From: an uncultured Acetatifactor sp.
GTDB taxonomy: Bacteria; Bacillota; Clostridia; Lachnospirales; Lachnospiraceae
Length of the DNA stretch: 64,000 bases
Assembly (NCBI GenBank): GCA_934436435.1
Contig: CAKSAN010000009.1
Coordinates: forward strand, 62,001 to 126,000
Direction of reading: 5' to 3'
The notes under the pieces are model-generated. The model saw only the letters and a list, made by a program, of their open reading frames with translations. It was not told where the DNA came from and did no database searches. Position numbers and translations under genes: made by a program. This document shows positions 3,431 through 63,555 of the stretch, in pieces. The stretch's first letter is position 1, and each line of letters begins with the position of its first letter.

Positions 3431-4288
3431 TTACTCCCGTGTATTTTCCTGATTCCAGAGCTGATGCCGTAATTTTTCGTCCGTTCCCTTGTGGCTCCGC
3501 TCCCGCCACTGGGTGGGGGTGCATTCGTACCGCTTCTGAAAACTGCGGTGGAAGGTCCGCATATTGGGAAATCCGCATTCGTAGCTGATCTCCGTCACGG
3601 TCTTCCTGCTGTCCTTCAGCAGATTGCAGGCCAGAATCATCCGCTGCTGTGCCACATAGGAGGGAAAGGAGATATTTAACTGGGAAGAAAAAATATGGGA
3701 CAGATAATAGGGACTGATGCCCAGTTCCTTTGCCACCTTCTGAGCCGTCAGTTCTCCGGTGATATTGTCGTTGATATATTGCAGAAGCTTCTGTGTGATA
3801 TTCAGATCCGAGGGCTTGTCCTTTTTGATCACCGGAACATTTTCATACATATCCGCCAACAGTGCCATCAGAAGCCCCTTGTCCTGCCGGAACGGCCGCA
3901 GTTCCTTATGCAGACCGATATCCGACAGAATGTCCAGTACCATCTGTCCGTAGCGGCTGAGCATGCTTTTCTGAAAATAGGGAGACTTCATATCATAATA
4001 GGTAAGTTCTTTCTGGAATTCTCCGATGGAATCCATATCCGCAATGATCAGAAGCATTCCCACCTCTCCTACAGAACTGTAGGAATGGATCTGGTTCGGA
4101 TAGATCATCAGGCAGTCTCCGGCGGTCAGATGATAATTCACCCCCGCTACCGTGGCATCCATTTCCCCCTCCGTCACATGGACGAATTCCATATGCTTAT
4201 GCAGATGAAACGGGAAATTCGGATGCCACCAGACATGGCAGTCATAGACCTTTTTCCGGCTCTCATAAAACGGTTTTACTGTATTCAT
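3431..4288 (-). CDS. AraC-family transcriptional regulator
   Basis: AraC/XylS-type regulator of about 285 residues. The N-terminal half looks like a cupin sugar-sensing domain (HLHKHMEFVHVTEGEM, then AGDCLMIYPNQIHSY). The C-terminal ~100 residues hold two helix-turn-helix units (TAQKVAKELGISPYYLSHIF and TVTEISYECGFPNMRTFHRS). ATG codons at 4288 and 4300 are both possible, with GGGGA and GGGA upstream; the frame is open farther upstream but reaches into the divergent gene. It is divergent from the GH3 gene and is the obvious candidate to activate it. Confidence 0.88.
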   Translation of the reverse strand: MNTVKPFYESRKKVYDCHVWWHPNFPFHLHKHMEFVHVTEGEMDATVAGVNYHLTAGDCLMIYPNQIHSYSSVGEVGMLLIIADMDSIGEFQKELTYYDMKSPYFQKSMLSRYGQMVLDILSDIGLHKELRPFRQDKGLLMALLADMYENVPVIKKDKPSDLNITQKLLQYINDNITGELTAQKVAKELGISPYYLSHIFSSQLNISFPSYVAQQRMILACNLLKDSRKTVTEISYECGFPNMRTFHRSFQKRYECTPTQWRERSHKGTDEKLRHQLWNQENTRE

Positions 4289-4410
4289 ACCAATCCCCAT
4301 ACCTTTCCCGGTCTGCAAACTTCGGGCCACAGACGCAAAGTTTAAACTGCTCTGTATTCTACATACCATATTCCGTTCCTGATTTCTACTGTTTTTCCTA
4401 AAAATAGCAA

Positions 4411-4469
4411 TTTTTGTCCTATATGTAATTCCTTTTTGTCGTGCAGTCCACACATTTTTCACGTACAAT
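4411..4469 (+). promoter_or_regulatory. GH3 promoter with direct repeats, likely AraC-type activation site
   Basis: A good -10, TACAAT, lies at 4464-4469 with no recognisable -35. The octamer TTTTTGTC occurs twice as a direct repeat at 4411-4418 and 4433-4440, 22 bases (about two helical turns) apart; the nearer copy ends close to where a -35 would begin. This arrangement is usual for AraC-type activators. Binding is inferred only from position. Confidence 0.45.
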
Positions 4470-4522
4470 AAGCTTAAATGAAAGCAGTTCCAATTTTCAA
4501 AAAATAAAAAGCGAGATATTTT

Positions 4523-6652
4523 ATGAATCGTACAGAAGCCAGAGAAAAAGCTGCCGTACTGGTAGCGCAAATGACAATAGAAGAAGCTGCTTCCCAGCTG
4601 TTGCACTCCGCTCCCGCTATTCCCCGTCTGGGCATTCCCGCCTATGACTGGTGGAGCGAAGCCCTCCATGGAGTCGCCAGAGCCGGTACTGCCACCTGCT
4701 ATCCGCAGGCAATCGGTCTGGGTGCAACTTTTGACCGTGAACTATTGCAGACGATTGCCGGTTCCATCGCGCTGGAAGCCCGGGCAAAATATAATGCCTA
4801 TTCCCGTCTCGGAGACCGTACCCGTTACAAGGGTGTGACCATGTGGTCTCCCAATATCAATATCTTCCGTGATCCCCGCTGGGGAAGAGGTCAGGAGACC
4901 TACGGTGAAGATCCTGTGCTTACCGCTGCACTTGGCTGTGCTTTCGTGGAAGGATTACAGACGAAACGGGACGGTTATCTGACTACCGCCGCCTGTGCCA
5001 AGCATTTTGCGGTACACTCCGGTCCGGAAGCCCTGCGTCACAGCTTTGACGCCAAAGCTACGAAGAAAGATCTGTGGGAAACTTATCTTCCCGCTTTTGA
5101 GGCCCTGGTGACAAAGGCTGATGTGGAAGCCGTCATGGGTGCTTACAACCGTACCAACGAGGAGCCATGCTGTGCACACTCCTATCTTATGGAAGAAGTA
5201 CTCCGCGGCAAATGGCATTTTGAAGGCCATTTCGTCTCCGACTGCTGGGCGATCCGGGATTTCCACGAAGGGCATCATGTGACCGCTTTTCCCGAAGATT
5301 CCGCTGCTCTCGCTCTGGAAAAGGGCTGCGACTTAAACTGCGGCTGTACCTATGAATATATTTTACAGGCATATAAACAGGGAAAAGTGACCGAAGAAGA
5401 GATCCGCCGCAGTGCGGAGCGCCTTTTCACCACCAGATACCTGCTGGGGCTCTTCGATCACAGTTCCTTAGACGAGATCCCTTACAACGTGGTGGGCTGT
5501 AAAGAGCACCGGGAACTGGCTTATCAGGCCGCTGTGGAAAGCTGTGTTCTGTTGAAAAATGACGGCACACTGCCCCTTTCCTTAAAAGATAAAAAACGCG
5601 TGGCTGTCATCGGCCCCAACGCCGACAGTCATGCCGCTCTGGTGGGCAACTACAACGGCACCCCGCCCCGCTCCATCACCGTGGTGGAAGGAATCACAAG
5701 GATCTGTGAAGATACCGGCTGGGATGTCAATTATGCGGAAGGGTGTCTGCTCTATGACGATCCCTCGGTAAGAAAGGTATTCCAGAACTACCGCATTCCC
5801 GAAGCTGTGGCATTAGCAGAATCCTGTGACCTTGCCATTGTATGTGTCGGTCTCGACTCCACGCTGGAGGGAGAACAGGGAGATGTGGGCAACGCCTTTG
5901 CCAGCGGAGATAAACCGGATCTGCTGCTTCCCAAAATTCAGCGGGATCTGGTGGAACAGGTCATTGCTACCGGCACTCCGGTGATCCTGATCGATCTGGC
6001 CGGCAGTCCCATGGATCTGTCCGCTTACGAAGATCAGGTTCCCGCGATCCTGCATGCCTGGTATCCCGGCGGAGAGGGTGGACGAGCTATTGCCGATATC
6101 CTGTTCGGCAAGGTATCTCCCGGCGGCAAACTGCCCCTTACCTTCTATTATAATGACAATCCTCTGCCGGACATTACCGACTACCATATGACCGGACGTA
6201 CCTACCGCTATTTTGAAGGCAGTCCCTGGAAGCCTTTCGGCTTCGGACTCACCTACGGAGAATTACAGATTACAGAGTCGAAAGTATCTGAAGTTGATTA
6301 CACGAAGGAGATTCCTTCCGCACAGATCACGGTACAGTGCCGGAACTCCACGGCTCGTGACTTAAGTGATGTCCTACAGGTATATGTCCATGTGAACGGT
6401 TCCGCCAATGAAGTTCCCAACCACAAGCTGGCTGCTTTCGAACGGATCCGTCTGGGTGCCGGAGAAAGCAGGGAATTCCTGCTCACTGTTCCACCCGCTG
6501 CATTTACTACGGTAGACGATTCCGGCAACAGAGTATTTGACGGTACTTCTGCTACGCTGTATCTGGGATTTTCCCAGCCGGATCTCACAGAAGACGGTCA
6601 GAAGGTCTATGCAAGTGGCAGAGGTCAGATCTTCGAGGTTACTTTACAATGA
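4523..6652 (+). CDS. Glycoside hydrolase family 3 (beta-xylosidase/beta-glucosidase type)
   Basis: GH3 exo-glycosidase, 709 residues, without a signal peptide and so probably acting on imported oligosaccharides. The N-terminal barrel carries WSEALHG, the transition-state region KHFAVHSGPE (about 160-169) and the nucleophile motif SDCWAI with Asp240. The alpha/beta sandwich domain starts near AVIGPNAD, and a fibronectin III-like domain ends the protein. The WSEALHG and KHF-VHSGPE motifs resemble the xylosidase/arabinofuranosidase side of GH3, but the substrate cannot be fixed by eye. The ATG at 4523 has only a weak ribosome site. A binding-protein gene follows 129 bases later. Confidence 0.93.
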   Translation: MNRTEAREKAAVLVAQMTIEEAASQLLHSAPAIPRLGIPAYDWWSEALHGVARAGTATCYPQAIGLGATFDRELLQTIAGSIALEARAKYNAYSRLGDRTRYKGVTMWSPNINIFRDPRWGRGQETYGEDPVLTAALGCAFVEGLQTKRDGYLTTAACAKHFAVHSGPEALRHSFDAKATKKDLWETYLPAFEALVTKADVEAVMGAYNRTNEEPCCAHSYLMEEVLRGKWHFEGHFVSDCWAIRDFHEGHHVTAFPEDSAALALEKGCDLNCGCTYEYILQAYKQGKVTEEEIRRSAERLFTTRYLLGLFDHSSLDEIPYNVVGCKEHRELAYQAAVESCVLLKNDGTLPLSLKDKKRVAVIGPNADSHAALVGNYNGTPPRSITVVEGITRICEDTGWDVNYAEGCLLYDDPSVRKVFQNYRIPEAVALAESCDLAIVCVGLDSTLEGEQGDVGNAFASGDKPDLLLPKIQRDLVEQVIATGTPVILIDLAGSPMDLSAYEDQVPAILHAWYPGGEGGRAIADILFGKVSPGGKLPLTFYYNDNPLPDITDYHMTGRTYRYFEGSPWKPFGFGLTYGELQITESKVSEVDYTKEIPSAQITVQCRNSTARDLSDVLQVYVHVNGSANEVPNHKLAAFERIRLGAGESREFLLTVPPAAFTTVDDSGNRVFDGTSATLYLGFSQPDLTEDGQKVYASGRGQIFEVTLQ

Positions 6653-6709
6653 GCATTCTGGCAGAAGCCATTTGCTATAGAGAGATGTATTTAAATAAGG
6701 AGGCTAAAT

Positions 6710-6767
6710 CCTCTCCTCGCCAAGAGGGGAAATTTCACTTCGTGAAATTGGATTTTCCTTCGGAAAA
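6710..6767 (+). promoter_or_regulatory. Three consecutive hairpins between GH3 and binding-protein genes
   Basis: Three short hairpins follow each other in 58 bases: CCTCT/AGAGG (6710-6714 with 6723-6727), AATTTCAC-TTC-GTGAAATT (6731-6749) and TTTTCC-TTC-GGAAAA (6753-6767). The second and third share a TTC loop. The ribosome site GGAGG (6771-6775) follows at once. No long U-tract is present, so RNA stabilisation or processing that raises expression of the binding protein is more likely than termination. This role is inferred. Confidence 0.5.
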
Positions 6768-6781
6768 CAAGGAGGATTACA

Positions 6782-8407
6782 ATGAAAAGAAACAAGATCT
6801 TAAGCCTGTTGCTGTCAGTTTCCATGCTGACTGCACTCACCGCCTGCGGAAGCCAGGGTTCCGATACTCCCGCAGCATCCACCACCGATAGTGGAAGCAC
6901 TACCGCCGCTGCCGAAAGCACCGCTTCTTCCGATGACAGTTATGTACTGGATAAGGTTACCATCGTTGTAGACGGTACTTTCAATGCCTCTGTAGATGCT
7001 TATCAAGACAAGTTCATTGAGCAGTGGGACGCTGCTGTCAGTGAAGCACTTGGTCATCCCGTCAGCCTGAATATCCAACAGTTAGACCATTCCAGTTATG
7101 TAGACGGTGTTGGTCGTCTGTTTGCCAGCGGTGATTACCCTGACGTAATTCTGCTGAATGCCGGTCAGTATGCCGAATATGCAAAAACCGGTCTTCTGTG
7201 GGATATGACAGATGCTTATGATAATGCAAAATTCCAGAGCCACATGGTACTGCCCGCAGTTAACCAGAATGTCCGCATCGACGGCAAACAGTATGGTCTG
7301 TCCACCGGTCTCGGCGGCGGTTGTATCACCTATGTTAAGCAGGCATGGCTGGATGCTGTCGGCATGAAGGCTGAGGACATTACCGACTGGGATTCCTACT
7401 ATGCAATGTTAAAGGCATTCACCGATCAGGATCCCGACGGCAATGGCAAGAATGATACCTATGGTGTTGCTGCCGCAGGATTTATGGGTTCCGAAGCGCC
7501 TTACACCAACTATCTGCCTCAGTTCTGGCAGAATGCATACCCCAGCTTCACCTATGATGAGAATGGTGTATGGTATGACGGTTTCAACACTCAGGAGACC
7601 AAGGATGCCCTGCTTCGTTTACAGCAGGCTTACGCAGATGGCGTCATCGATCCCGAGTCCCTGACCATGGGCACCAAGGATGTCCGTGAAAAATGGTGGT
7701 CTTCCGACCAGTCCGGTTCCTTCGGTGCTTTCACCTACTGGTCCGGTTACTGGAATGATAACCTGGTTAACAATATGGATAAGAACGGTGTAGATTCCGG
7801 ACTGGCAAGACTGGTTCCCATTGCCGAAATGGATGGCTACCTGAACAGAGAATCTCCTGTATACTGCATCATTGATGACGGTGACGGCGATGATTCCAGA
7901 GAACAGGCAATCTTTGATACCGTCTTCGAGACCATGTTCGACGGCGGTACCGTACAGACTCTGTGGGTATACGGCGCAGAAGGCTACCACTGGTCTACCG
8001 AAGCTGAGACCATTGTCACCGGCGAAGGTACTGATAAGGAAAAGACTTACGAATACAAGGATGGTGAATTCCATCTCCGCCTGAATCCTTCCGATCCCAG
8101 TGCTTTGTGGAAAAAGAATGCTATTGATCCTTCTTCCATGATCTGCTCCTTAGAAAACGGTTTCGAATCCGCTACCGACCTGACCAAGGAATGTAACGAA
8201 TTCTTCTCAGAGCACAGCGTAGATGCTCCTCACTCCGCTTCCTGTGACGGTATTACCAACTACGGTGGTACGATCAGCGATGCCAGAAATGATGTTATCG
8301 CTGAGGTTGTTGTAAAGGGCGGAGATGTAGAAGCGGCTATGGCAAATTACGTCAAGACCACTCAGGAAATGGTAAATGAAATTCTTGGAGAATTAAACGC
8401 ACAGTAA
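6782..8407 (+). CDS. Sugar ABC transporter substrate-binding lipoprotein
   Basis: Extracellular solute-binding protein of 541 residues, family 1 type. A lipoprotein signal peptide ends in TALTAC, giving a lipid-anchored Cys21, followed by a Ser/Thr/Ala-rich linker up to about residue 55. The mature part shows typical binding-protein segments (FASGDYPDVILLN, TGLLWDMTDAYD). The length is near that of the large LplA-like oligosaccharide-binding proteins. The strong AAGGAGG site sets the start at 6782. No permease or ATPase gene is beside it, so it must use components encoded elsewhere; the MsmK-type ATPase at 52.3 kb is one candidate. Confidence 0.9.
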   Translation: MKRNKILSLLLSVSMLTALTACGSQGSDTPAASTTDSGSTTAAAESTASSDDSYVLDKVTIVVDGTFNASVDAYQDKFIEQWDAAVSEALGHPVSLNIQQLDHSSYVDGVGRLFASGDYPDVILLNAGQYAEYAKTGLLWDMTDAYDNAKFQSHMVLPAVNQNVRIDGKQYGLSTGLGGGCITYVKQAWLDAVGMKAEDITDWDSYYAMLKAFTDQDPDGNGKNDTYGVAAAGFMGSEAPYTNYLPQFWQNAYPSFTYDENGVWYDGFNTQETKDALLRLQQAYADGVIDPESLTMGTKDVREKWWSSDQSGSFGAFTYWSGYWNDNLVNNMDKNGVDSGLARLVPIAEMDGYLNRESPVYCIIDDGDGDDSREQAIFDTVFETMFDGGTVQTLWVYGAEGYHWSTEAETIVTGEGTDKEKTYEYKDGEFHLRLNPSDPSALWKKNAIDPSSMICSLENGFESATDLTKECNEFFSEHSVDAPHSASCDGITNYGGTISDARNDVIAEVVVKGGDVEAAMANYVKTTQEMVNEILGELNAQ

Positions 8408-8713: not shown

Positions 8714-9007
8714 GGGCACAAACTCTTATAATTCCAAGATTGTACCCTCTCCGTCAAGAGTTGTGGGCACAGAGTGGCTTATCTCCTTGTACTGTGCCCA
8801 TTTTAAAACAGGCTGCGGGCACAGATAGACTTATTCCCTTGTGCTGTGCCCATTTTAGAACAAACCGTGGGCACAGCGCAGCTCACCTTCTTGTACTGTG
8901 CCCATTTTAAAACAAGCTGTGGGCACAGCGCGACGCGTTCTCTTGCATTGTACCCATTTTTAAACAAAAGGAAGGGCACAGACATCGAATTTATCGTTGC
9001 TGTGCCC
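8714..9007. repeat. 52-bp tandem array of hairpin units (about six copies)
   Basis: The heptamer GGGCACA recurs at 8714, 8765, 8817, 8869, 8921 and 8974, a period of 51-53 bases. Each central unit folds as GGGCACAG with CTGTGCCC, then ATTTTAAAACA or a variant. The first and last units are diverged. The array fills the rest of the gap between convergent genes and has no coding content. It resembles a minisatellite built on a terminator-like hairpin; there are no unique spacers, so it is not a CRISPR. Confidence 0.85.
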
Positions 9008-13160: not shown

Positions 13161-15002
13161 CTATTTCCACTCGTCGTAATGCTCCAGAAAATGGTGCTTC
13201 ACGCCGTCTTCCTTATAGGCAATAATGGTGCGCAGATTTACGTTCTCCACACTCTTGAAAATATTCCCTTCGATAAAGGGATTGGCCTGTTTCAGCGAAG
13301 CGATCAGGTTCTTGATCTCCATACGCTTGGAGGGGCTGCTGCCATCGGTACGGCAGGTGGTACAGGTGTCCGTGAACCGGCAGGCACACTGGATAAAATG
13401 CAGATCGTTGTAATCTCTCCAGTGCTTGATGTCGTCCTCGCGGATCAGATACATGGGGCGGATCAGCTCCATGCCTTCGAAATTCGTACTGTGAAGTTTC
13501 GGCATCATGGTCTGCACCTGTCCGCCGTACAACATTCCCATGAGGATCGTCTCGATGACATCATCGTAGTGGTGTCCCAGTGCGATCTTATTGCAGCCCA
13601 GTTCTTTCGCATGGCTGTACAGATAGCCCCTGCGCATTCTCGCACACAGATAGCAGGGAGAATCCTCTATGTCATACACCGCATCGAAAATCTGGGATTC
13701 GAAGATGGTGATGGGAATATCCATCAGCTTTGCATTGTTCTCAATGATCTTGCGGTTCGCCTCACTGTAGCCGGGATCCATCACCAAAAATACCAGTTCA
13801 AAGGGGAACTTGTTATGACGCTTCAGCTCCTGAAACAGCTTTGCCATCAGCATGGAGTCCTTACCGCCGGAAATACATACGGCGATCTTGTCGTTCTCCT
13901 GGATCATATCGTATTCGTTGATGGCCTTGGCGAATCGGGAAAACAGGACTTTGTGGAACTTCTTGCGGATACTCTTCTCGATGTCCAGTGCTCTCTGGTT
14001 CACCTCCGTCTGAGGCTGTTCCTTCTGCATCAGATTCAAAAGCCAGCCGGTATAGCCGCCCTGTAAACTGTAGGCATCCATTCCCTGTTCTCTGAAATAC
14101 TCTGCGGACACTTTGCTGTTCTGTCCACGGCTGCAATACAGAATTACTTTTTTATCCCCTGCTGTAGCAGCCAGTTTGTCCCCCAGTTCACATTCGGAGA
14201 TAGCGACAGCCCCGGGGATCTTGCCGTAATTTACCGCTTCATCGCCTCTGGTATCCACTAATATATAACTGTCTGGGATAAGAGTCTGCACCTGCTCCCA
14301 GGTGATCTCGCAGGATTCCTCCGAAGGTACGGTCAGAAGCTCCGGCATCTTCTTCTGTAATTCCATCAGGCTGTCACATTTTTGGTCCACCATGGTAAGA
14401 ATCTCCTCTGTGGGCGGCAGCTGATCCGGCACCATTACCGTATATAAACCCGCCGCATGAGCGGAGCGGATGCCGTTAAAGGAATCCTCCACCGCCATAG
14501 CCTGTCCGGGAGCCACGCCCAGTTCTTCACAGGCCTTCATGTAAATATCCGGTGCGGGCTTGCCGTTTTCCACCATGTCCCCGCAGACGATTCTTTCAAA
14601 ATATGCCGTGATCCCGGCTCTGTCAAGATGCTCCATGACCGCCGCTTTTCTTGTGGAGGAAGCTAATGCCACAGGAATCCCGTTCTGCTTCAGATACTCC
14701 AGGATCTCATGCACCCCCGGCTTCTCGGGAAGCCCTTCCCGCTCTTCCTTTTCCTTGAATCTCCTGCTGCAATCCTCATGCAGTTCCTCAAAGGAAACGT
14801 CAATGCCCTGCTCTGCCTTCGCCGCCTCGAACACTTCCTTTGTGCCCTGCAGGGTCCTGCCGATACAGGCTTTGGAGATCTCATCCACGTTTTTAAGACC
14901 CTTAGGTTCTGCCGCTTCTCTCCAGCACTCCATGTACATTCTCTCGGTATCAAAAAGGACACCGTCCATATCAAATACCACTGCGGTTATTGTTGTCTTC
15001 AT
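13161..15002 (-). CDS. HAD phosphatase-rhodanese-TtcA-like fusion protein
   Basis: A 613-residue protein with three enzyme units. Residues 1-215 are a HAD hydrolase of the beta-phosphoglucomutase type (FDMDGVLFDTE with Asp11/Asp13, ASSTRKA, then EDSFNGI). Residues 230-325 are a rhodanese with active-site Cys290 in CSRGQNS, as a sulfur carrier should have. Residues 340-613 are a TtcA-like PP-loop ATPase: SGGKDS at 378-383, cysteines 450 and 453 in PCYLC, GHHYDDVIET, and a further cysteine group at 539-550. TtcA makes 2-thiocytidine in tRNA using sulfur and a [4Fe-4S] cluster, so a fused rhodanese is logical; the HAD unit has no obvious role. The ATG at 15002 has AGGAG 5 bases upstream. It follows the helicase gene by 56 bases. 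Confidence 0.85.
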   Translation of the reverse strand: MKTTITAVVFDMDGVLFDTERMYMECWREAAEPKGLKNVDEISKACIGRTLQGTKEVFEAAKAEQGIDVSFEELHEDCSRRFKEKEEREGLPEKPGVHEILEYLKQNGIPVALASSTRKAAVMEHLDRAGITAYFERIVCGDMVENGKPAPDIYMKACEELGVAPGQAMAVEDSFNGIRSAHAAGLYTVMVPDQLPPTEEILTMVDQKCDSLMELQKKMPELLTVPSEESCEITWEQVQTLIPDSYILVDTRGDEAVNYGKIPGAVAISECELGDKLAATAGDKKVILYCSRGQNSKVSAEYFREQGMDAYSLQGGYTGWLLNLMQKEQPQTEVNQRALDIEKSIRKKFHKVLFSRFAKAINEYDMIQENDKIAVCISGGKDSMLMAKLFQELKRHNKFPFELVFLVMDPGYSEANRKIIENNAKLMDIPITIFESQIFDAVYDIEDSPCYLCARMRRGYLYSHAKELGCNKIALGHHYDDVIETILMGMLYGGQVQTMMPKLHSTNFEGMELIRPMYLIREDDIKHWRDYNDLHFIQCACRFTDTCTTCRTDGSSPSKRMEIKNLIASLKQANPFIEGNIFKSVENVNLRTIIAYKEDGVKHHFLEHYDEWK

Positions 15003-15058
15003 AGTTCTCCTTATATCTGGTTCCACCATAGGGTTGTTGCCCCTGCCTGTGGCCCCCA

Positions 15059-18000
15059 TCATTTTGCGCGTAAATAATAATCGATGATCTCTGTCTCTTC
15101 CATGGAAATATAGGTTCCGTACATGGCTATATTGCAGCACAGCACCCGGCTTCCCGCAGGGAAGATCATCTCATATCCATTGGACGAAGCCAGCCCGGGA
15201 TATCTGTCATCCTCTCTTCCATAGGAAAAATAAACAGCGGAATTTCCTATTTTCAAGGATCTGGGTGCCCCGATTCCTCCGGCGATCAGAACCTCGTCCT
15301 TTTTCCGGTCAAAAAAGCTCCAGTTCTTTTTCTCACCGAGTTGTCTGGGTTCTCTGCTTCGTTCCGTCAGCAGAATCTTACCCTGTGTATTTAAAAATGT
15401 CAATGCTCCCGTCTTTTTATCCACACGGATCTGCCCATATCCCGTCGTAATTTCCACCGCAGACGGGTTCTCCCGCACCGTGTATTTGAAGTCTCCCGCT
15501 GCCGTCACTGCCGCTTTCGGGAATTCCCGGCATTGTCCTCTGGCAAAGCATATGCGGAACAGATCTGCCGCAAGGGGTGTGATCCGCAGGGTTCCGTAGC
15601 TGCTTAGGAAGTCCACATAGCCCTCGTCCTTCATGACCATGCGCACGGCACAGTCGATCCTGGAATGTCCGGCAGGCATCAGTGTTTTGGCATCCGGCAT
15701 ATCGCCGTACTCGCCGTTATTTTCTAGTCTCAGCGGCTCCTGCCTGCCGGCCGTTCTGTCCGCGTTGCCGTTTCCGGAGCCTTTCTGCCCGGTCTTCTTC
15801 GGCCCGGAGCCCTCCGCTGTCGTCTGACTGTTTCGTGTCACTATGATCTTCTTCGGGCCGTACCGTTCTCTCGAAAGCCTCTCCTTTTCCGCTTCCTGTG
15901 CCCGCTGTCGGTAGATCTCTTCCTTCGTTTTCTCCGGCTCTGCCTGTTTTTTCACTGATGTTACAGGCTTCTTCTGGGCATCTGCGGCAAGGCGCATTCT
16001 CTGCTTCTGCTCCGGGGATATGGAATCTGCAATCAGTCCGGTGAGTTTCCCCCGGTATAGCACCGTCAGCTCATGCAGGGCTCTGGTGGCCGCCACATAC
16101 AGCTGCTTCACATATCCGTCTTCTACCGGATAGTCCTCCTCCGAGGCATTGAAGATCAGTACCGCATCAAATTCCAGACCCTTGGTGTATTTTAACGGAA
16201 GCACCATGACGCCCTCGCCGATCTCCCATTTTCCCGCATCACCGGTATTCAGTTCCACGCTGCCCTGCAAAGCGGCCGTTACTTTTTCCGCCTCCGCTTC
16301 GTCAATGCAGACTACGGCAATGGTGTCCAGCCCCTTGTCCTGCCATGCCTTAATAATCTGCTCCGCCTGTGTCACCTGACCGGTAAAATCTGTACATTTT
16401 TTCACCGTGACCGGCTCTCCGTGACGGATGATGGGTTCCACCGGATAGACCGGAAAACTTCCGTGATACAGGATGTCTGTGGCAAACTCCGAGATTTCCA
16501 CTGTGTTACGGTAGCTTTTCTGCAAGATGCCGAAATAATCAAATTCCCCGGGCAGCATCAGTTTCCGCAGTTCCGTCCAGTCGTTGAGACCGTAGCGGTC
16601 GGAAATATTCTGGGCCACATCCCCCATGATCGTATAGGTGCATTTACTCAGGCAGTATTTTAAGGACGCATAAGCCATCATGCCGAAATCCTGGGCTTCG
16701 TCGATCACCACATGTCCCGCCTCCCGGATCACCGTATCCTCCTTGATGCGCTTGTAGAGGTAAGCCATAGCCGCCAGATCGTAGACATCGTAGCTGCCTT
16801 CCGGCATGACGACAGGAAACTCCTTTTCCTGCTCTTCCTTCAGGAACTGCTCATAGAGCTCCGCCACCGAGCCCTTCCATTCCCGTTTTCCGAAATAAGT
16901 CTCGTAATAATGTTTCAGCTTCTGTTTTTCCGACTGGGTATAGGAATAATATTTTCCGCTGAGTTCATTTTCCAGCCGTGCCATAAGGTAATCCGTCAGT
17001 CTGCTGATCTTGTCCGCCCGGGACAGATCCTTCGTCTCTTTTAACAGCCTCGTAATAGTAGCCCGATCCAACAGCACTTTGCCGGTCTTTTCGATCACTA
17101 CGTCCTCTCTGGGGATTGCGCGGTATTCGTAACGCAGACAGAAATTCTCCAGTTCCTTAAACCAGACAAGGGTTCCCTTCACCGCCGGGGTCACACCTTT
17201 TACCACCGGTCTGATCTCATAGGACTTGTCCCAGTCCTCGTACAAAAGCCTTACGAACAGCTGCTCCATGGTCATCTGGGAGACGCCGTAAACATTCAGT
17301 TCCGGCAGCACTCCCGTGATATAGTTTAGGAGCACCTGATTGCTTCCCACGATGTAAAAGTCCTCCGGCGCAAACTCCTGCTCATAATTGTACAGAATGT
17401 AGGAAATGCGGTGCATGGCCACCGTGGTCTTGCCGGAACCCGCCGCTCCCTGCACGATCATGTTGTGCTGAGGCTTTTTGCGGATGACTTCATTCTGCTC
17501 CTGCTGGATCGTGGCAATGATCTCTCCCAGCACCGCTTTTTTATTCCTCGCCAGATATTTCGTCAGCAGTTCATCGTTCGCCACCACATCCGAATCGTAG
17601 AAGTCCTTCAGTTCGTCGTTTTCGATTTCATAGGTGCGTTTTCTGGACAGGGTGATGTCGTATTTTCCCTCCCCTTTCACAGAATAGGTGACATCTCCAA
17701 GTGCCGCATCGTAATATACACTGGCTATGGGTGCTCTCCAGTCGATGACCTCCGGTTCGGCTGGATTGTCAGCAATAACGCTTCTTCCGATATAGTAGAC
17801 CTCGTCTTTTTTTAACTTTTTGTCCCGGAAATCAATTCTGCCGAAATAGGGCTTTTTTCTCGCCTGCTCCGCCCGGCGCAGATCCTGATTTACGAATTTG
17901 AAACGGGCATCCGCATTGTGCCACAGAGTCTGGGCTTCCTTGTCTTCTTTGTTGAACTCCTCCTGCATGGCATGCAGCTCCTCCGCCAGTGCCTGTACGC

Positions 18001-18097
18001 TCTGCCTATTGGCATCTACCTTGCGCTGTGCGATCTCCAGCGTATGCTTTAATCTTTTTTCCTCGTCCTGCCTCGTAATCCCGGGTAAACCGCTCAT
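15059..18097 (-). CDS. HelD-type superfamily 1 helicase with a GH31-like C-terminal domain
   Basis: A 1012-residue protein. The first ~740 residues match HelD/helicase IV, which in Gram-positives frees stalled RNA polymerase: an N-terminal coiled coil (10-80), the EVIDWRAPIASVYYD segment, Walker A GAAGSGKTT (217-225), the DEAQDFGMMAY helicase motif, QKSYRNT and the motif around YVAATRALHELTV. A charged linker follows. From about residue 810 there is a separate domain (LRITPLAADLFRICFARG, ITTGYGQIRVDKKTGALTFL, MEETEIIDYYL) that looks like the N-terminal beta-sandwich of GH31 alpha-glucosidases without the catalytic barrel. The ATG at 18097 has AGGAG 6 bases upstream. The HAD-rhodanese-TtcA gene follows. 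Confidence 0.85.
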   Translation of the reverse strand: MSGLPGITRQDEEKRLKHTLEIAQRKVDANRQSVQALAEELHAMQEEFNKEDKEAQTLWHNADARFKFVNQDLRRAEQARKKPYFGRIDFRDKKLKKDEVYYIGRSVIADNPAEPEVIDWRAPIASVYYDAALGDVTYSVKGEGKYDITLSRKRTYEIENDELKDFYDSDVVANDELLTKYLARNKKAVLGEIIATIQQEQNEVIRKKPQHNMIVQGAAGSGKTTVAMHRISYILYNYEQEFAPEDFYIVGSNQVLLNYITGVLPELNVYGVSQMTMEQLFVRLLYEDWDKSYEIRPVVKGVTPAVKGTLVWFKELENFCLRYEYRAIPREDVVIEKTGKVLLDRATITRLLKETKDLSRADKISRLTDYLMARLENELSGKYYSYTQSEKQKLKHYYETYFGKREWKGSVAELYEQFLKEEQEKEFPVVMPEGSYDVYDLAAMAYLYKRIKEDTVIREAGHVVIDEAQDFGMMAYASLKYCLSKCTYTIMGDVAQNISDRYGLNDWTELRKLMLPGEFDYFGILQKSYRNTVEISEFATDILYHGSFPVYPVEPIIRHGEPVTVKKCTDFTGQVTQAEQIIKAWQDKGLDTIAVVCIDEAEAEKVTAALQGSVELNTGDAGKWEIGEGVMVLPLKYTKGLEFDAVLIFNASEEDYPVEDGYVKQLYVAATRALHELTVLYRGKLTGLIADSISPEQKQRMRLAADAQKKPVTSVKKQAEPEKTKEEIYRQRAQEAEKERLSRERYGPKKIIVTRNSQTTAEGSGPKKTGQKGSGNGNADRTAGRQEPLRLENNGEYGDMPDAKTLMPAGHSRIDCAVRMVMKDEGYVDFLSSYGTLRITPLAADLFRICFARGQCREFPKAAVTAAGDFKYTVRENPSAVEITTGYGQIRVDKKTGALTFLNTQGKILLTERSREPRQLGEKKNWSFFDRKKDEVLIAGGIGAPRSLKIGNSAVYFSYGREDDRYPGLASSNGYEMIFPAGSRVLCCNIAMYGTYISMEETEIIDYYLRAK

Positions 18098-59575: not shown

Positions 59576-60385
59576 TTATCCTACCACGGCATCACCTCTG
59601 CTACAACCAAAATATTCCTGCAAAATTATTTCTACTTTATCTGCATTCAGAGGGCACTGTTTTGTTTCGTATGTAAGAATCAAGTTTACAGAAGGAATGA
59701 TGCCATGTCGACAATATAATTTTATTTTGTCACAGGCATGATTGCAATATTCCGGATTACCCATCATCCCAAAGTGCTCCCAATAATATACCTGTCCCGT
59801 TTTAGGATGCCGAATCGTAAAATCCGGATATAAAATTGTTCCATCCAAAACCAATTTTTCTTCATAGTGAAACGGTATTTTATTTTGATAAAGCATTCTG
59901 TCAATAATTGCCTCTGATTTAGACCGCAGCATTTTCCCATGTGTTCCTTGTACCAGAAGATTTTCCGGATGTTTTGTGCTTTTTTCGTAAGGTTCCTCCT
60001 GCCATCTTTGGAGTTCCTTATCCAATGGTCTGAAATTTTTAGCCAATAATCTTCCATACTCTGGATGGTTCAACAAATATTCGGAACTTACTTTGATTTT
60101 GTCTGTTTTTCTTAAATAGGCATTCCATCCTGCAACCTCACTCTCCAGTTCCTTTTTTCTGCATTCACAATATTTCTTCAATGCCAGTGTTTCCGCCTGA
60201 TTTCTTTCCGTTTTGGGGAGATAGTGTAGTCCTTTTTCCCCTTTCACTTTCCATTTATAACGGTTTTCATTTTTAAGGCATTGCAATTCCCCTTGGGGAA
60301 ATTTTTTCTCCAGTTTTGTTATTTTCTCTAATTCCTTATTAATTTCTTTTATTCTATTTTCTATATTTTCACGCGTAATCTTCAC
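59576..60385 (-). CDS. PD-(D/E)XK-like nuclease domain protein
   Basis: A 269-residue protein. The N-terminal half is charged and helical (coiled coil ~5-85). The C-terminal half has the order of a restriction-like fold: Glu158 in SKSEAIIDRML, Asp188 in LYPDFTIRHP and Glu203 in YWEHFGMMGNPEY, then a helix with CDKIKLY. GTG at 60385 is chosen because AAGGAGGAAAA lies just upstream; this site is at the edge of the adjacent tandem array. No methylase is present, so it is probably not a restriction enzyme proper. Confidence 0.65.
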   Translation of the reverse strand: MKITRENIENRIKEINKELEKITKLEKKFPQGELQCLKNENRYKWKVKGEKGLHYLPKTERNQAETLALKKYCECRKKELESEVAGWNAYLRKTDKIKVSSEYLLNHPEYGRLLAKNFRPLDKELQRWQEEPYEKSTKHPENLLVQGTHGKMLRSKSEAIIDRMLYQNKIPFHYEEKLVLDGTILYPDFTIRHPKTGQVYYWEHFGMMGNPEYCNHACDKIKLYCRHGIIPSVNLILTYETKQCPLNADKVEIILQEYFGCSRGDAVVG

Positions 60386-60400
60386 TTTTCCTCCTTCTGC

Positions 60401-60730
60401 GCCCCGGCTCCCAGGCTTCCCCGGGGCTTATTCCTACTTTTTCCTCTCCTACGCCCCGGCTCCACGACTTCCACGGGGCTTATTCTTACTTTTCCTTCTT
60501 CTACGCCCCGGCTCCCAGACTTCCACGGGGCTTATTTTTACTTTTCTTTCTTCTACGCCCCGGCTCCCAGACTTCCACGGGGCTTATTCTTACTTTTCTT
60601 TCTTCTATGCCCCGGCTCCCAGACTTCCCCGGGGCTTATTTTTACTTTTCTTTCTTCTACGCCCCGGCTCCCAGACTTCCCCGGGGCTTATTCTTACTTC
60701 TCCTTCTTCTACGCCCCGGCTTGCCCACAA
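60401..60730. repeat. 52-bp tandem array of GC-stem hairpins (six copies and a partial)
   Basis: GCCCCGGCT starts units at 60401, 60453, 60505, 60557, 60609, 60661 and 60713: an exact 52-base period. Each unit folds as GCCCCGG with CCGGGGC (some copies have A in the stem), then a T/C-rich stretch like TTATTCTTACTTTTCTTTC. Adjacent units are nearly identical; edge units differ more. The minus strand carries purine-rich, ribosome-site-like runs in each unit. It separates comEC from the nuclease-like gene. No spacers, so not CRISPR. Confidence 0.92.
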
Positions 60731-60738
60731 CCTTGAAC

Positions 60739-63555
60739 CTATTCTCCTTCCAGATACCCTCGCAGTCGTTTTCCATGGGAATCCACGGCTACTGTCAGGG
60801 CTCCGTAGTCTGTGGTGCAGTACCAGGGGACACTGGCGTCTTCGAGGCGCTGCAGGGTCCCGGCATGGGGATGTCCGTAGGAATTGTTGCGGCCGCAGGA
60901 AATGATTGCGGCAGTGGGGCTGGCGGCGGCAAGGAACTCGGAGCTGGTGGAATAACCGGAACCGTGGTGCGCCACCTTCAGAATGTCTACTGTGAATGCC
61001 CCCTGTCTGCGCTGTTCCCGCGACTCTTGCGATTCCTGCAACGTCTGCAATTCCTGTATCAGCTGCCGCTCCCCTTCTCCTTCCACATCCCCGGTCAGAA
61101 GGATGCTTATTTTCCCGGTACGCCCGACGGAATCATTGCCCTCACCGGCACCACTGATTCCCCTGTTCTCACCGGCACCGACAGTTCCCTTACTGCCATC
61201 GGCCACTCCGGCAGCAAATCTTCCATCCACTGCACTTTCTTCCATGGCAGCGGATGCCATAGCATCTGCCGTTATGGTATCTACTGCTGCATGCTGCCCT
61301 GTCTCCTTCGCATACACTTCCACATAAAAGCATTCCGAATAGGCATTGGCATCCGCCAGAGTTGTATTCTCCTCTGGGTGCAGGCACAGCAGCCGCAACT
61401 GACTGTCTCTGATCTCATCCCCGCATTTTATGTAAGTTACCGTCGTGCCGGCCCCCTCCGCAGCGGTGAGCAGCCCCGCAAAAGCCTCCTCCCGATCCGC
61501 TTCCTGAATGGCCGGCAGGAACAACTGCTCCACAGAAATTCCCCACTTCTCGCTATTTCCCAGCAATTCCAATACCCCATTCATGTGATCTTCATCGGGA
61601 TGCGATACGAATACCGCGCGGAGAGAACGAATCCCCTGACTCTTGAGATAAGGCTTCAACACATATTCACCGACTTTCTTTCGGCTGGTACTGCCGCAGT
61701 CAAAAAGGTATGCCCCCTGTGCAGTTTCCACTACAATGCCATCTCCCTGTCCCACGTCCAGAAAAACTATTCTGCTGCTGTTGTCAAATTTCCCTGTCAG
61801 CAGAAAGACGAGCAAACCTAAGAATACCATCGTCGCAATTCTTCCATAAAATCCATTTCCATGTGCAATTATGCCCTGCCATGCCTGCCACAATTCCCCC
61901 AAAAAGTACCGCCCTCTTCCGGAACAGACCCCGGAGCATATCCCAGAACTCATTCTCTTTTCCCCATTTGTAAAATGAAATTGGTTGGCCATCTTGCATC
62001 CCCCTCGATGTTGTCCTTCCCCTCTGCCAGGTTTCGGCGCGCAAGTTCTCCGCTTTTCCCATTCTTTCATATAGTGTCTGACCAGAGCCAACACAAACAG
62101 CCCGGCATAATAGATAACGATCTGCCACACTGCCGGTCTCCCCACTGTCCATACCGCTCCCGGCAGTTCCTGGAACCGCTCACAGATCCACTCATACCAC
62201 CACAGAATCAGACAATCCACCGTGCCTATGATTCCACATCCCGGGATCAGCGAAATGATGCCGCCTGCCATCACCATACTCATAAGCGGCAACACCAGCA
62301 GATTCAACAACACCGAATATACGGGAATCTCGTAAAAGAACCAAAGCTGTACCGGCAAAATAAATAAGGTGACTCCCACACTGGTGACAAAACCGCTCTT
62401 TCCTGCTGCCAGTACCTGACGGATCCCTTGATATAGTGCTTTGCGCCAGCCTTCCCGGTACTTGTTCCTCTCATAGGCGGAATCTCCCAAAATTCCCACC
62501 ACAGTACGAAGCCACCCGGGCATCCCGAAATATTTCCGCCTGCCTTCCCGGACTTCCTTCTTCGCATCCGGATCCGACTTCTCTGCCGGATCCCGTTCCC
62601 TATCTCTGCCATCTTCTCTGCCTCTTCCGGTCAATACCGGTGTCAGCATACAGATTCCCAGCACGGCACCAAAGGACATTAAAAAGCTCACATCCCCCAA
62701 TTGCTCCGGTTCCTGCAGAATCAACAGTACCGCCATCAGCCCCACAGCGGTCAACATATCATAAGTCCTGCCCACAAACACCCCAAGCATCCGCAGCAGA
62801 TACATTCCGATGGCACGACTTGCCGACACACTCATCCCCACCATCACACCATACATAAGCAAGGCAATGATGCCTCCCACCGCTGCCGCCCTGACCGGTG
62901 CCCCCAGTTTTTTTAACAGCCGATAGAATCCCATTCCCAATAGCGTAATATGCAGCCCAGAAATGCTTAAAATGTGGGCAATCCCGTTCCTCTGGTACAG
63001 CGCCTTTACCTCCGCATCCAGTTCTTCCTTCTCCCCCAGCAATAAGGTCTGCATAACGGAAGCTTCTTTTTCCGGGAATACCCTCGCCAGTCTGTCATGT
63101 AATACCATACGAAAATCATACAGTTTTTCCCGCAAAAAATTATAGTCCTCCCCGGTTGCCAGAACCTGTGCCTTCCGCACTCTGCCGCCGATGCCTTTTC
63201 CCACATAATATGCCCGCACATTGAATTCTCCGGGATTGGTTGCTGTCTCAAATTGCGAAAAAACGCCTTCCAGAGCAATCTGCTGCCCCAGCTTAAGATC
63301 CTGATGCTCCTGTACATTTGTCAGCTCACATTGTAATTTTCCAGAATAGGAATATGTCAGATCGTTTTGAATAATAGAAATTGATTTCAGAATAATCGTT
63401 TGAGAAGTTCTTGTGTCTATCCGTCCCGTGATCCTCACCGGACTTCCGTCAGGCGGCAGCCCACCGTTGTCCCCGGTGTCTGCCCCTGTCAGTATTCTTC
63501 CTATGGCGAGCACTATCACGAGACACAGACACCCCAGAAAAAGCGGTCGTCTCAT
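60739..63555 (-). CDS. comEC: DNA internalisation protein ComEC/Rec2
   Basis: A 938-residue competence channel protein: N-terminal helices and DUF4131 OB-like region (ITGRIDTRTSQTII), a Competence domain with many helices (GIAHILSISGLHITLLGMGF) and a C-terminal metallo-beta-lactamase domain (FLDVGQGDGIVVETAQGAYL, VSHPDEDHMNG, KVAHHGSGYSTS). A Gly/Asp-rich insertion lies inside the beta-lactamase part (about 815-865). The ATG at 63555 has AAGGGAG upstream; the longer frame to 63639 lacks a site. It suggests DNA uptake, but other competence genes are outside this window. Confidence 0.94.
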   Translation of the reverse strand: MRRPLFLGCLCLVIVLAIGRILTGADTGDNGGLPPDGSPVRITGRIDTRTSQTIILKSISIIQNDLTYSYSGKLQCELTNVQEHQDLKLGQQIALEGVFSQFETATNPGEFNVRAYYVGKGIGGRVRKAQVLATGEDYNFLREKLYDFRMVLHDRLARVFPEKEASVMQTLLLGEKEELDAEVKALYQRNGIAHILSISGLHITLLGMGFYRLLKKLGAPVRAAAVGGIIALLMYGVMVGMSVSASRAIGMYLLRMLGVFVGRTYDMLTAVGLMAVLLILQEPEQLGDVSFLMSFGAVLGICMLTPVLTGRGREDGRDRERDPAEKSDPDAKKEVREGRRKYFGMPGWLRTVVGILGDSAYERNKYREGWRKALYQGIRQVLAAGKSGFVTSVGVTLFILPVQLWFFYEIPVYSVLLNLLVLPLMSMVMAGGIISLIPGCGIIGTVDCLILWWYEWICERFQELPGAVWTVGRPAVWQIVIYYAGLFVLALVRHYMKEWEKRRTCAPKPGRGEGQHRGGCKMANQFHFTNGEKRMSSGICSGVCSGRGRYFLGELWQAWQGIIAHGNGFYGRIATMVFLGLLVFLLTGKFDNSSRIVFLDVGQGDGIVVETAQGAYLFDCGSTSRKKVGEYVLKPYLKSQGIRSLRAVFVSHPDEDHMNGVLELLGNSEKWGISVEQLFLPAIQEADREEAFAGLLTAAEGAGTTVTYIKCGDEIRDSQLRLLCLHPEENTTLADANAYSECFYVEVYAKETGQHAAVDTITADAMASAAMEESAVDGRFAAGVADGSKGTVGAGENRGISGAGEGNDSVGRTGKISILLTGDVEGEGERQLIQELQTLQESQESREQRRQGAFTVDILKVAHHGSGYSTSSEFLAAASPTAAIISCGRNNSYGHPHAGTLQRLEDASVPWYCTTDYGALTVAVDSHGKRLRGYLEGE

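Follow-up and report, generated by a model that had tools for sequence, protein, structure and literature searches.

A HelD-type motor that carries a GH31 N-terminal domain at its C-terminus is almost certainly what is encoded by the gene on the minus strand of the window, by which we mean the whole 64,000-nucleotide stretch of DNA that was analyzed. Lachnospiraceae bacterium GAM79, whose genome is complete, has the same arrangement: the matching gene lies in one frame (1029 aa) and shares neighbors with that of the window. The fusion provides a clear example of how a domain of a glycosidase, detached from the enzyme, has been retained on a transcription factor through a bacterial lineage.

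Architecture of the fused protein

The features of the gene, with the evidence for each in parentheses, are the following:

15059..18097, minus strand: open reading frame, 1012 aa from ATG, no internal stop
16028..18097, minus strand: HelD-type core, N-terminal arm and split motor, residues 1-690 (NF041464, 6wvk_H, 6yxu_H, motifs)
17423..17449, minus strand: Walker A, GAAGSGKTT, residues 217-225 (motif location)
16688..16702, minus strand: motif II, DEAQD, residues 466-470 (motif location)
16079..16102, minus strand: motif VI, LYVAATRA, residues 666-673, near the motor end (motif location)
15698..16027, minus strand: variable charged linker, residues 691-800, net +7 (GAM79 comparison, dN/dS, model pLDDT)
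15632..15697, minus strand: lead-in PDAKTLMPAGHSRIDCAVRMVM, residues 801-822 (GAM79 comparison, relatives)
15062..15631, minus strand: GH31 N-terminal-type beta-sandwich, residues 823-1012 (profile, Pfam, predicted fold)
15613-15625 and 16864-16876, minus strand: imperfect 13-base repeats flanking the second half of the motor (10/13 alike; window gene intact)

The single unbroken frame reported by the first-pass annotation is borne out, and an alternative TTG start 15 bases 5' of the ATG would extend the product to 1017 aa. That annotation had also assigned residues 1 to about 740 to HelD; the identity stands, but the core ends at about residue 690. NCBIfam NF041464 (HelD_BACSU) is the best family for the protein (E 1.3e-98), and the best PDB sequence relatives of the core are the HelD proteins of B. 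subtilis (6wvk, E 4.1e-66) and mycobacteria (6yxu, E 3.5e-35). The SF1 motor motif set is complete, with six motifs located: those listed above, GDVAQ at 492, KSYRNT at 527, and TKGLEFD at 638. Because the NF041464 score of 331 bits falls under the equivalog cut-off of 419, we classify the protein by its family profile as HelD-type and do not claim strict orthology to the B. subtilis protein.

The assignment of the tail to the GH31 N-terminal domains follows from profile evidence and predicted fold. An hhalign comparison of 21 tails with seven GH31 proteins (PF01055 in all seven, one of them, L049, in a short frame) aligned 209 columns with a probability of 99.9 and an E-value of 4.5e-35, and all 12 matches to a profile of tails among PDB sequences at E <= 0.1 were GH31-type enzymes. 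A model of the tail alone reached a pLDDT of 84.7 and a pTM of 0.85, and the Foldseek and VIA-align structure lists obtained with it back the GH31 N-terminal fold. These lines agree on the GH31-like beta-sandwich that had been proposed from about residue 810 onward, and the structural check of the C-terminal ~200 residues found the expected match. Membership of PF13802 (GH31 N-terminal galactose-mutarotase-like) is thus indicated by profile-level homology and predicted fold, not by Pfam score: the tail alone scored E 4.6e-4 and 21 bits, under the cut-off of 27, the Pfam scan of the whole window protein did not report PF13802, and a PDB search with the window tail as a single sequence returned no match. 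In whole-protein scans of two tailed relatives, PF13802 appeared at E 0.006 in one and was not reported in the other. A PF13802 scan of the GAM79 genome gave 0 matches, so the domain would escape Pfam used alone.

The window tail ends in IDYYLRAK, directly ahead of where the catalytic barrel would start; the frame stops there, and the Pfam scan of the window protein did not find PF01055, the catalytic TIM barrel. With the barrel missing and the G-x-G motif mostly lost across tails, the tail is, judged from these features, not a GH31 enzyme. The linker is 17 residues shorter in the window than in GAM79. Most of it has low pLDDT in a model of the full-length protein, but the overall quality of that model is poor (pLDDT 62.5, pTM 0.39), too poor to show whether the tail packs on HelD. 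The lead-in is the same in GAM79, residue for residue; its loose GHxx pattern occurs in 133 of 171 among the listed relatives of 960-1320 aa and is absent from the last 70 residues of the nine tail-less HelDs that were looked at.

Two further features of the window were recorded. At 13161-15140 on the minus strand, HAD hydrolase, rhodanese, and PP-loop domains share one 659-aa frame, the GAM79 counterpart of which is two separate frames (L001 6611-7309 and 7768-8946). Repeat arrays with a 52-base period lie at 60326-60793 and 8763-8968 (seven and three overlapping copies, respectively).

Distribution and origin of the fusion

With a threshold of E <= 0.01, a tail match was found in 32 of the 299 genomes of a family sample and in none of the other 267. 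HelD and tail share one frame in 22 of the 299 (that of G049 is truncated at a contig end). In G150 (L037) they occupy two overlapping frames, and in G007 the contig ends before HelD is reached. The remaining eight matches are GH31 genes, seven with PF01055 and the eighth, in G116, broken and assigned by eye. HelD cores were present at E <= 1e-40 in 85 of the 299 genomes, and tail-less HelDs of ~700 aa exist within Lachnospiraceae too. In the 'genus' sample of GAM79 (61 genomes), the tail matched in 34 and shared a frame with HelD in 30 (28 loci, GAM79, and G713); the others are G714, cut by a contig end, and three genomes with GH31-size frames only. Over both samples the in-frame fusion occurs in 51 genomes, GAM79 being in both and counted once. 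A class-wide sample gave tail matches in 32 of 391 genomes, with the HelD type only in GAM79. Among its 31 non-GAM79 matches, PF01055 status was established for six, all of which have it (L103-L105 in G547, G613, and G444; G407, G611, and G208), and in the others the domain lies inside the first 350 residues of 274-845-aa frames. The fusion is therefore likely restricted to Lachnospiraceae, as far as a class-wide sample whose make-up is not shown here can indicate.

The first-pass annotation had named an assembly or sequencing join, together with relatives lacking the tail, among the results that would undo the fusion, and had pointed to relatives for a matching tail. That tail is present in GAM79 and in 22 of the 299 family genomes, and the complete GAM79 genome together with the 51 in-frame genomes refutes a join; we found no point in its support and regard it as virtually impossible. 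Two broken loci were seen along the way. In L037, on a 3.5-Mb contig, HelD (3779-6028) and tail (5919-6887) are separated by a frameshift that is either real or a sequencing error, and in G116 the GH31-like gene (L084 3-1400) is split over several frames, with no helD adjoining it in that stretch.

A tree of HelD cores comprised 38 rows, 23 tailed (the split L037 counted as tailed) and 15 tail-less; the tailed cores form one clade (SH-aLRT 98.3), and the tail-less cores all fall outside it. The tail tree comprised 50 tails, namely 49 that remained of 87 tail frames after removal of duplicates plus the window, and 28 GH31 N-domains, reduced from 34. Left out were the short-frame tails of G150, G049, G007, and G714, as well as GH31 matches in frames of <400 aa, with a start >130, or above the E-value limit. 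All 50 tails form one clade (SH-aLRT 100), adjacent to the GH31 rows L103-L105, in which PF01055 is present. The two trees come from quick searches, SH-aLRT being the one measure of support, and branches are long in L026, L023, and L122, among others. Since the tailed motors form one clade and the tails form one clade beside GH31, the fusion seems to have originated once, in a Lachnospiraceae ancestor, by capture of the tail from a GH31 N-terminal beta-sandwich; one fusion followed by vertical descent would explain both trees. No intermediate joining HelD to a complete GH31 enzyme was seen (PF01055 in 0 of the 120 listed of 352 matches), and a profile search revealed no GH31 N-domain adjoining the tail-less sister helD genes in L082, L083, L085, and L086.

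Other hosts of the tail were considered and set aside. P0008, apparently a topoisomerase, switches to HelD at HELTVLYRG and occurs on one contig only, and is probably a chimeric assembly, while proteins of 569 and 595 aa proved by sequence to be HelD with an internal deletion. P0209 (1297 aa) and P0220 (1308 aa) are HelD-tail proteins with ~260 extra N-terminal residues that match PF18082 and PF18164, which we take to be NAT_N and GNAT_C; by its domain matches, this N-terminal part is a second fusion on the tailed HelD motor.

The deletion forms are numerous. At least 59 HelD forms (59 of the 120 listed of 252 matches) have lost the segment from about residue 411 to the tail; most are 569 or 595 aa long and keep the arm, Walker A, and the tail, with motifs II-VI gone. 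The search behind them used the tail as query, so only tail-keeping forms could be found. In the intact GAM79 gene (L001 3478-6567) the break points AAGGGCTCTGTGG and AAGGGCTATGTGG share 12 of 13 bases, and recombination between these repeats would cut 434 codons and keep the frame. Two junction versions, KGSV in 37 forms and KGYV in 22, suggest that the deletion arose at least twice. One deletion-form protein was found on 170 contigs of up to 722 kb, which makes assembly error an unlikely source.

Constraint on the tail and its possible roles

Features of a GH31 N-domain eroded after the fusion, and near-invariance arose at other tail positions. All 28 GH31 proteins carry the G-x-G motif ([LFIV][YFWHL]G[LFGM]G), versus 5 of 50 tails; the L-R-G motif is kept in 14 of 50, a ~30-residue excursion of the GH31 N-domain is missing, and in the clade that includes the window the last GH31-like turn is gone. 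R918, S958, C988, Y993, and G994 are near-invariant (96-98%, n=50). R918 reaches 98% in tails versus 43% in GH31, S958 and C988 each 96% (GH31 has H in 32% and N in 29%, respectively), and K933 92% (E in 39% of GH31). Comparison of the window with GAM79 gave a tail dN of 0.052, a dS of 0.377, and hence a dN/dS of ~0.14, against ~0.04 for the core and ~0.18 for the linker. On the strength of this one pair, the tail is under purifying selection that is weaker than that on the motor. The faster evolution of linker and tail, together with the turn lost in the window's clade, suggests that a binding face may differ among clades.

To our knowledge, little is known of how HelD is recruited outside Bacillus and mycobacteria. 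The motor would presumably act as other HelDs do, its arms entering the channels of RNA polymerase and ATP driving release, and the tail on its ~110-residue linker may be a binding module with no catalytic role, through which HelD docks at RNA polymerase or a nearby partner. A built-in helper is plausible, and a further anchor might be of use, in Clostridia without the delta subunit: according to the available text of PMC7749167 and PMC8655204, delta aids HelD in Bacillus and is absent from most Clostridia (two exceptions are named). The precedent is PcrA/UvrD, a related motor; its Tudor domain, located at the C-terminus and tethered by a lengthy linker that appears disordered, is described in the available text of PMC5397179 and PMC8318588 as binding RNA polymerase. 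Against docking stands the fold of the tail, which is not a Tudor fold, so that the likeness to the PcrA/UvrD C-terminal domain is one of analogy. The 267 family genomes with no tail match and the tail-less HelDs of the family also weigh against it. The tail sequence VDKKTGALTF was also considered as a counterpart of the RNA polymerase motif bound by PcrA (VDPETGEIL, with the Glu as key residue, in the same part of PMC8318588) and was rejected, given that TGE occurs in 5 of 50 tails and that GH31 shares the turn. By analogy, then, docking at RNA polymerase or a partner is our tentative assignment, held at somewhat below an even chance, and the explanation as a whole, a single capture of a GH31 domain by HelD combined with a docking role, we consider about evenly balanced between right and wrong.

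Other roles have to be weighed against the same observations. The tail might work within HelD itself, packing on the motor or pairing two HelDs and thereby setting ATPase activity, stability, or release with no outside partner. Tailed motors and tails forming one clade each is what co-inheritance would produce, and the newly conserved tail positions could face the motor; however, a long variable linker is more in keeping with tethering than with a fixed position, and the poor full-length model offers no reliable contact, which leaves such a role unlikely, if worth keeping in mind. A sensor of sugars or phosphosugars, through which polymerase recycling would respond to carbon supply, would accord with descent from a glycosidase domain and with the GH31-like motifs that persist in a few tails (G-x-G in five, L-R-G in 14). 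GH31 enzymes bind their substrate chiefly in the barrel, though, and the barrel is absent, as is the G-x-G motif from 45 of the 50 tails; we consider a sensor improbable. Still less probable is the bolder proposal that a sugar, glycan, or phosphosugar bound by the tail switches HelD on or off, with the forms that lack the second half of the motor plugging the polymerase channel independently of ATP and under control of the tail. A sensor tail, if real, would let carbohydrate supply act directly on how gut bacteria recycle RNA polymerase.

That the tail is a useless passenger, a tolerated relic of the fusion, would fit its faster evolution relative to the motor and the frameshift that parts it from HelD in one contig (L037). 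Yet its dN/dS of ~0.14 in one pair, the residues nearly invariant over 50 tails, and the absence of tail-less rows from within the 23-row clade, one member of which is frameshift-split, all speak against this, as do the in-frame motor deletions that retain it, albeit from a tail-based search that finds only such forms. We judge passive persistence very improbable indeed. Docking remains our preferred reading, and in either case the tail is a removable HelD module for experiments in gut bacteria.

Comparison with known systems

Tailed HelDs are already visible in databases. Four of 120 listed relatives bear the NCBI name 'DUF4968 domain-containing', and HelD-like proteins so named are very likely identical with the tailed HelDs; on helicases, 'DUF4968' thus signals a real fusion and not carbohydrate metabolism. 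The methods of Newing et al. 2020 (PMC7749167) list HelD hits of a DUF4968 category, with counts of 74 and 37, the term appearing nowhere else in the available main text, and the main text of the HelD class survey PMC8655204, as available, is free of the terms 'DUF', 'C-terminal', and 'extension'. In the literature searched, which did not extend to most subscription journals or to bioRxiv preprints, 'DUF4968' appears in two papers, HelD being the subject of one, and no description of the domain, its origin, or its role was found.

PcrA/UvrD likewise join a C-terminal beta domain through a long linker to a UvrD-like motor acting on RNA polymerase, but the Tudor domain has a different fold, and binding to RNA polymerase, shown for PcrA/UvrD in the available text of the papers cited above, would apply to the tail by analogy. 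GH31 hydrolases (PF13802; 5zn6, 6jr6, 7kmp) share their N-terminal beta-sandwich with the tail in both fold and sequence, a likeness that in several relatives reaches the IDYYF...L turn before the barrel. Unlike these enzymes, the tailed protein has no TIM barrel, C-terminal domains, or ~30-residue excursion, and for the most part the tails no longer show the G-L-G-Q and N-L-R-G motifs. The class I HelD of B. subtilis (6wvk/6zca/6zfb) resembles the window protein by sequence in its N-terminal region and motor, but ends at 774 aa without such a C-terminal domain, in an organism that also has the delta subunit.
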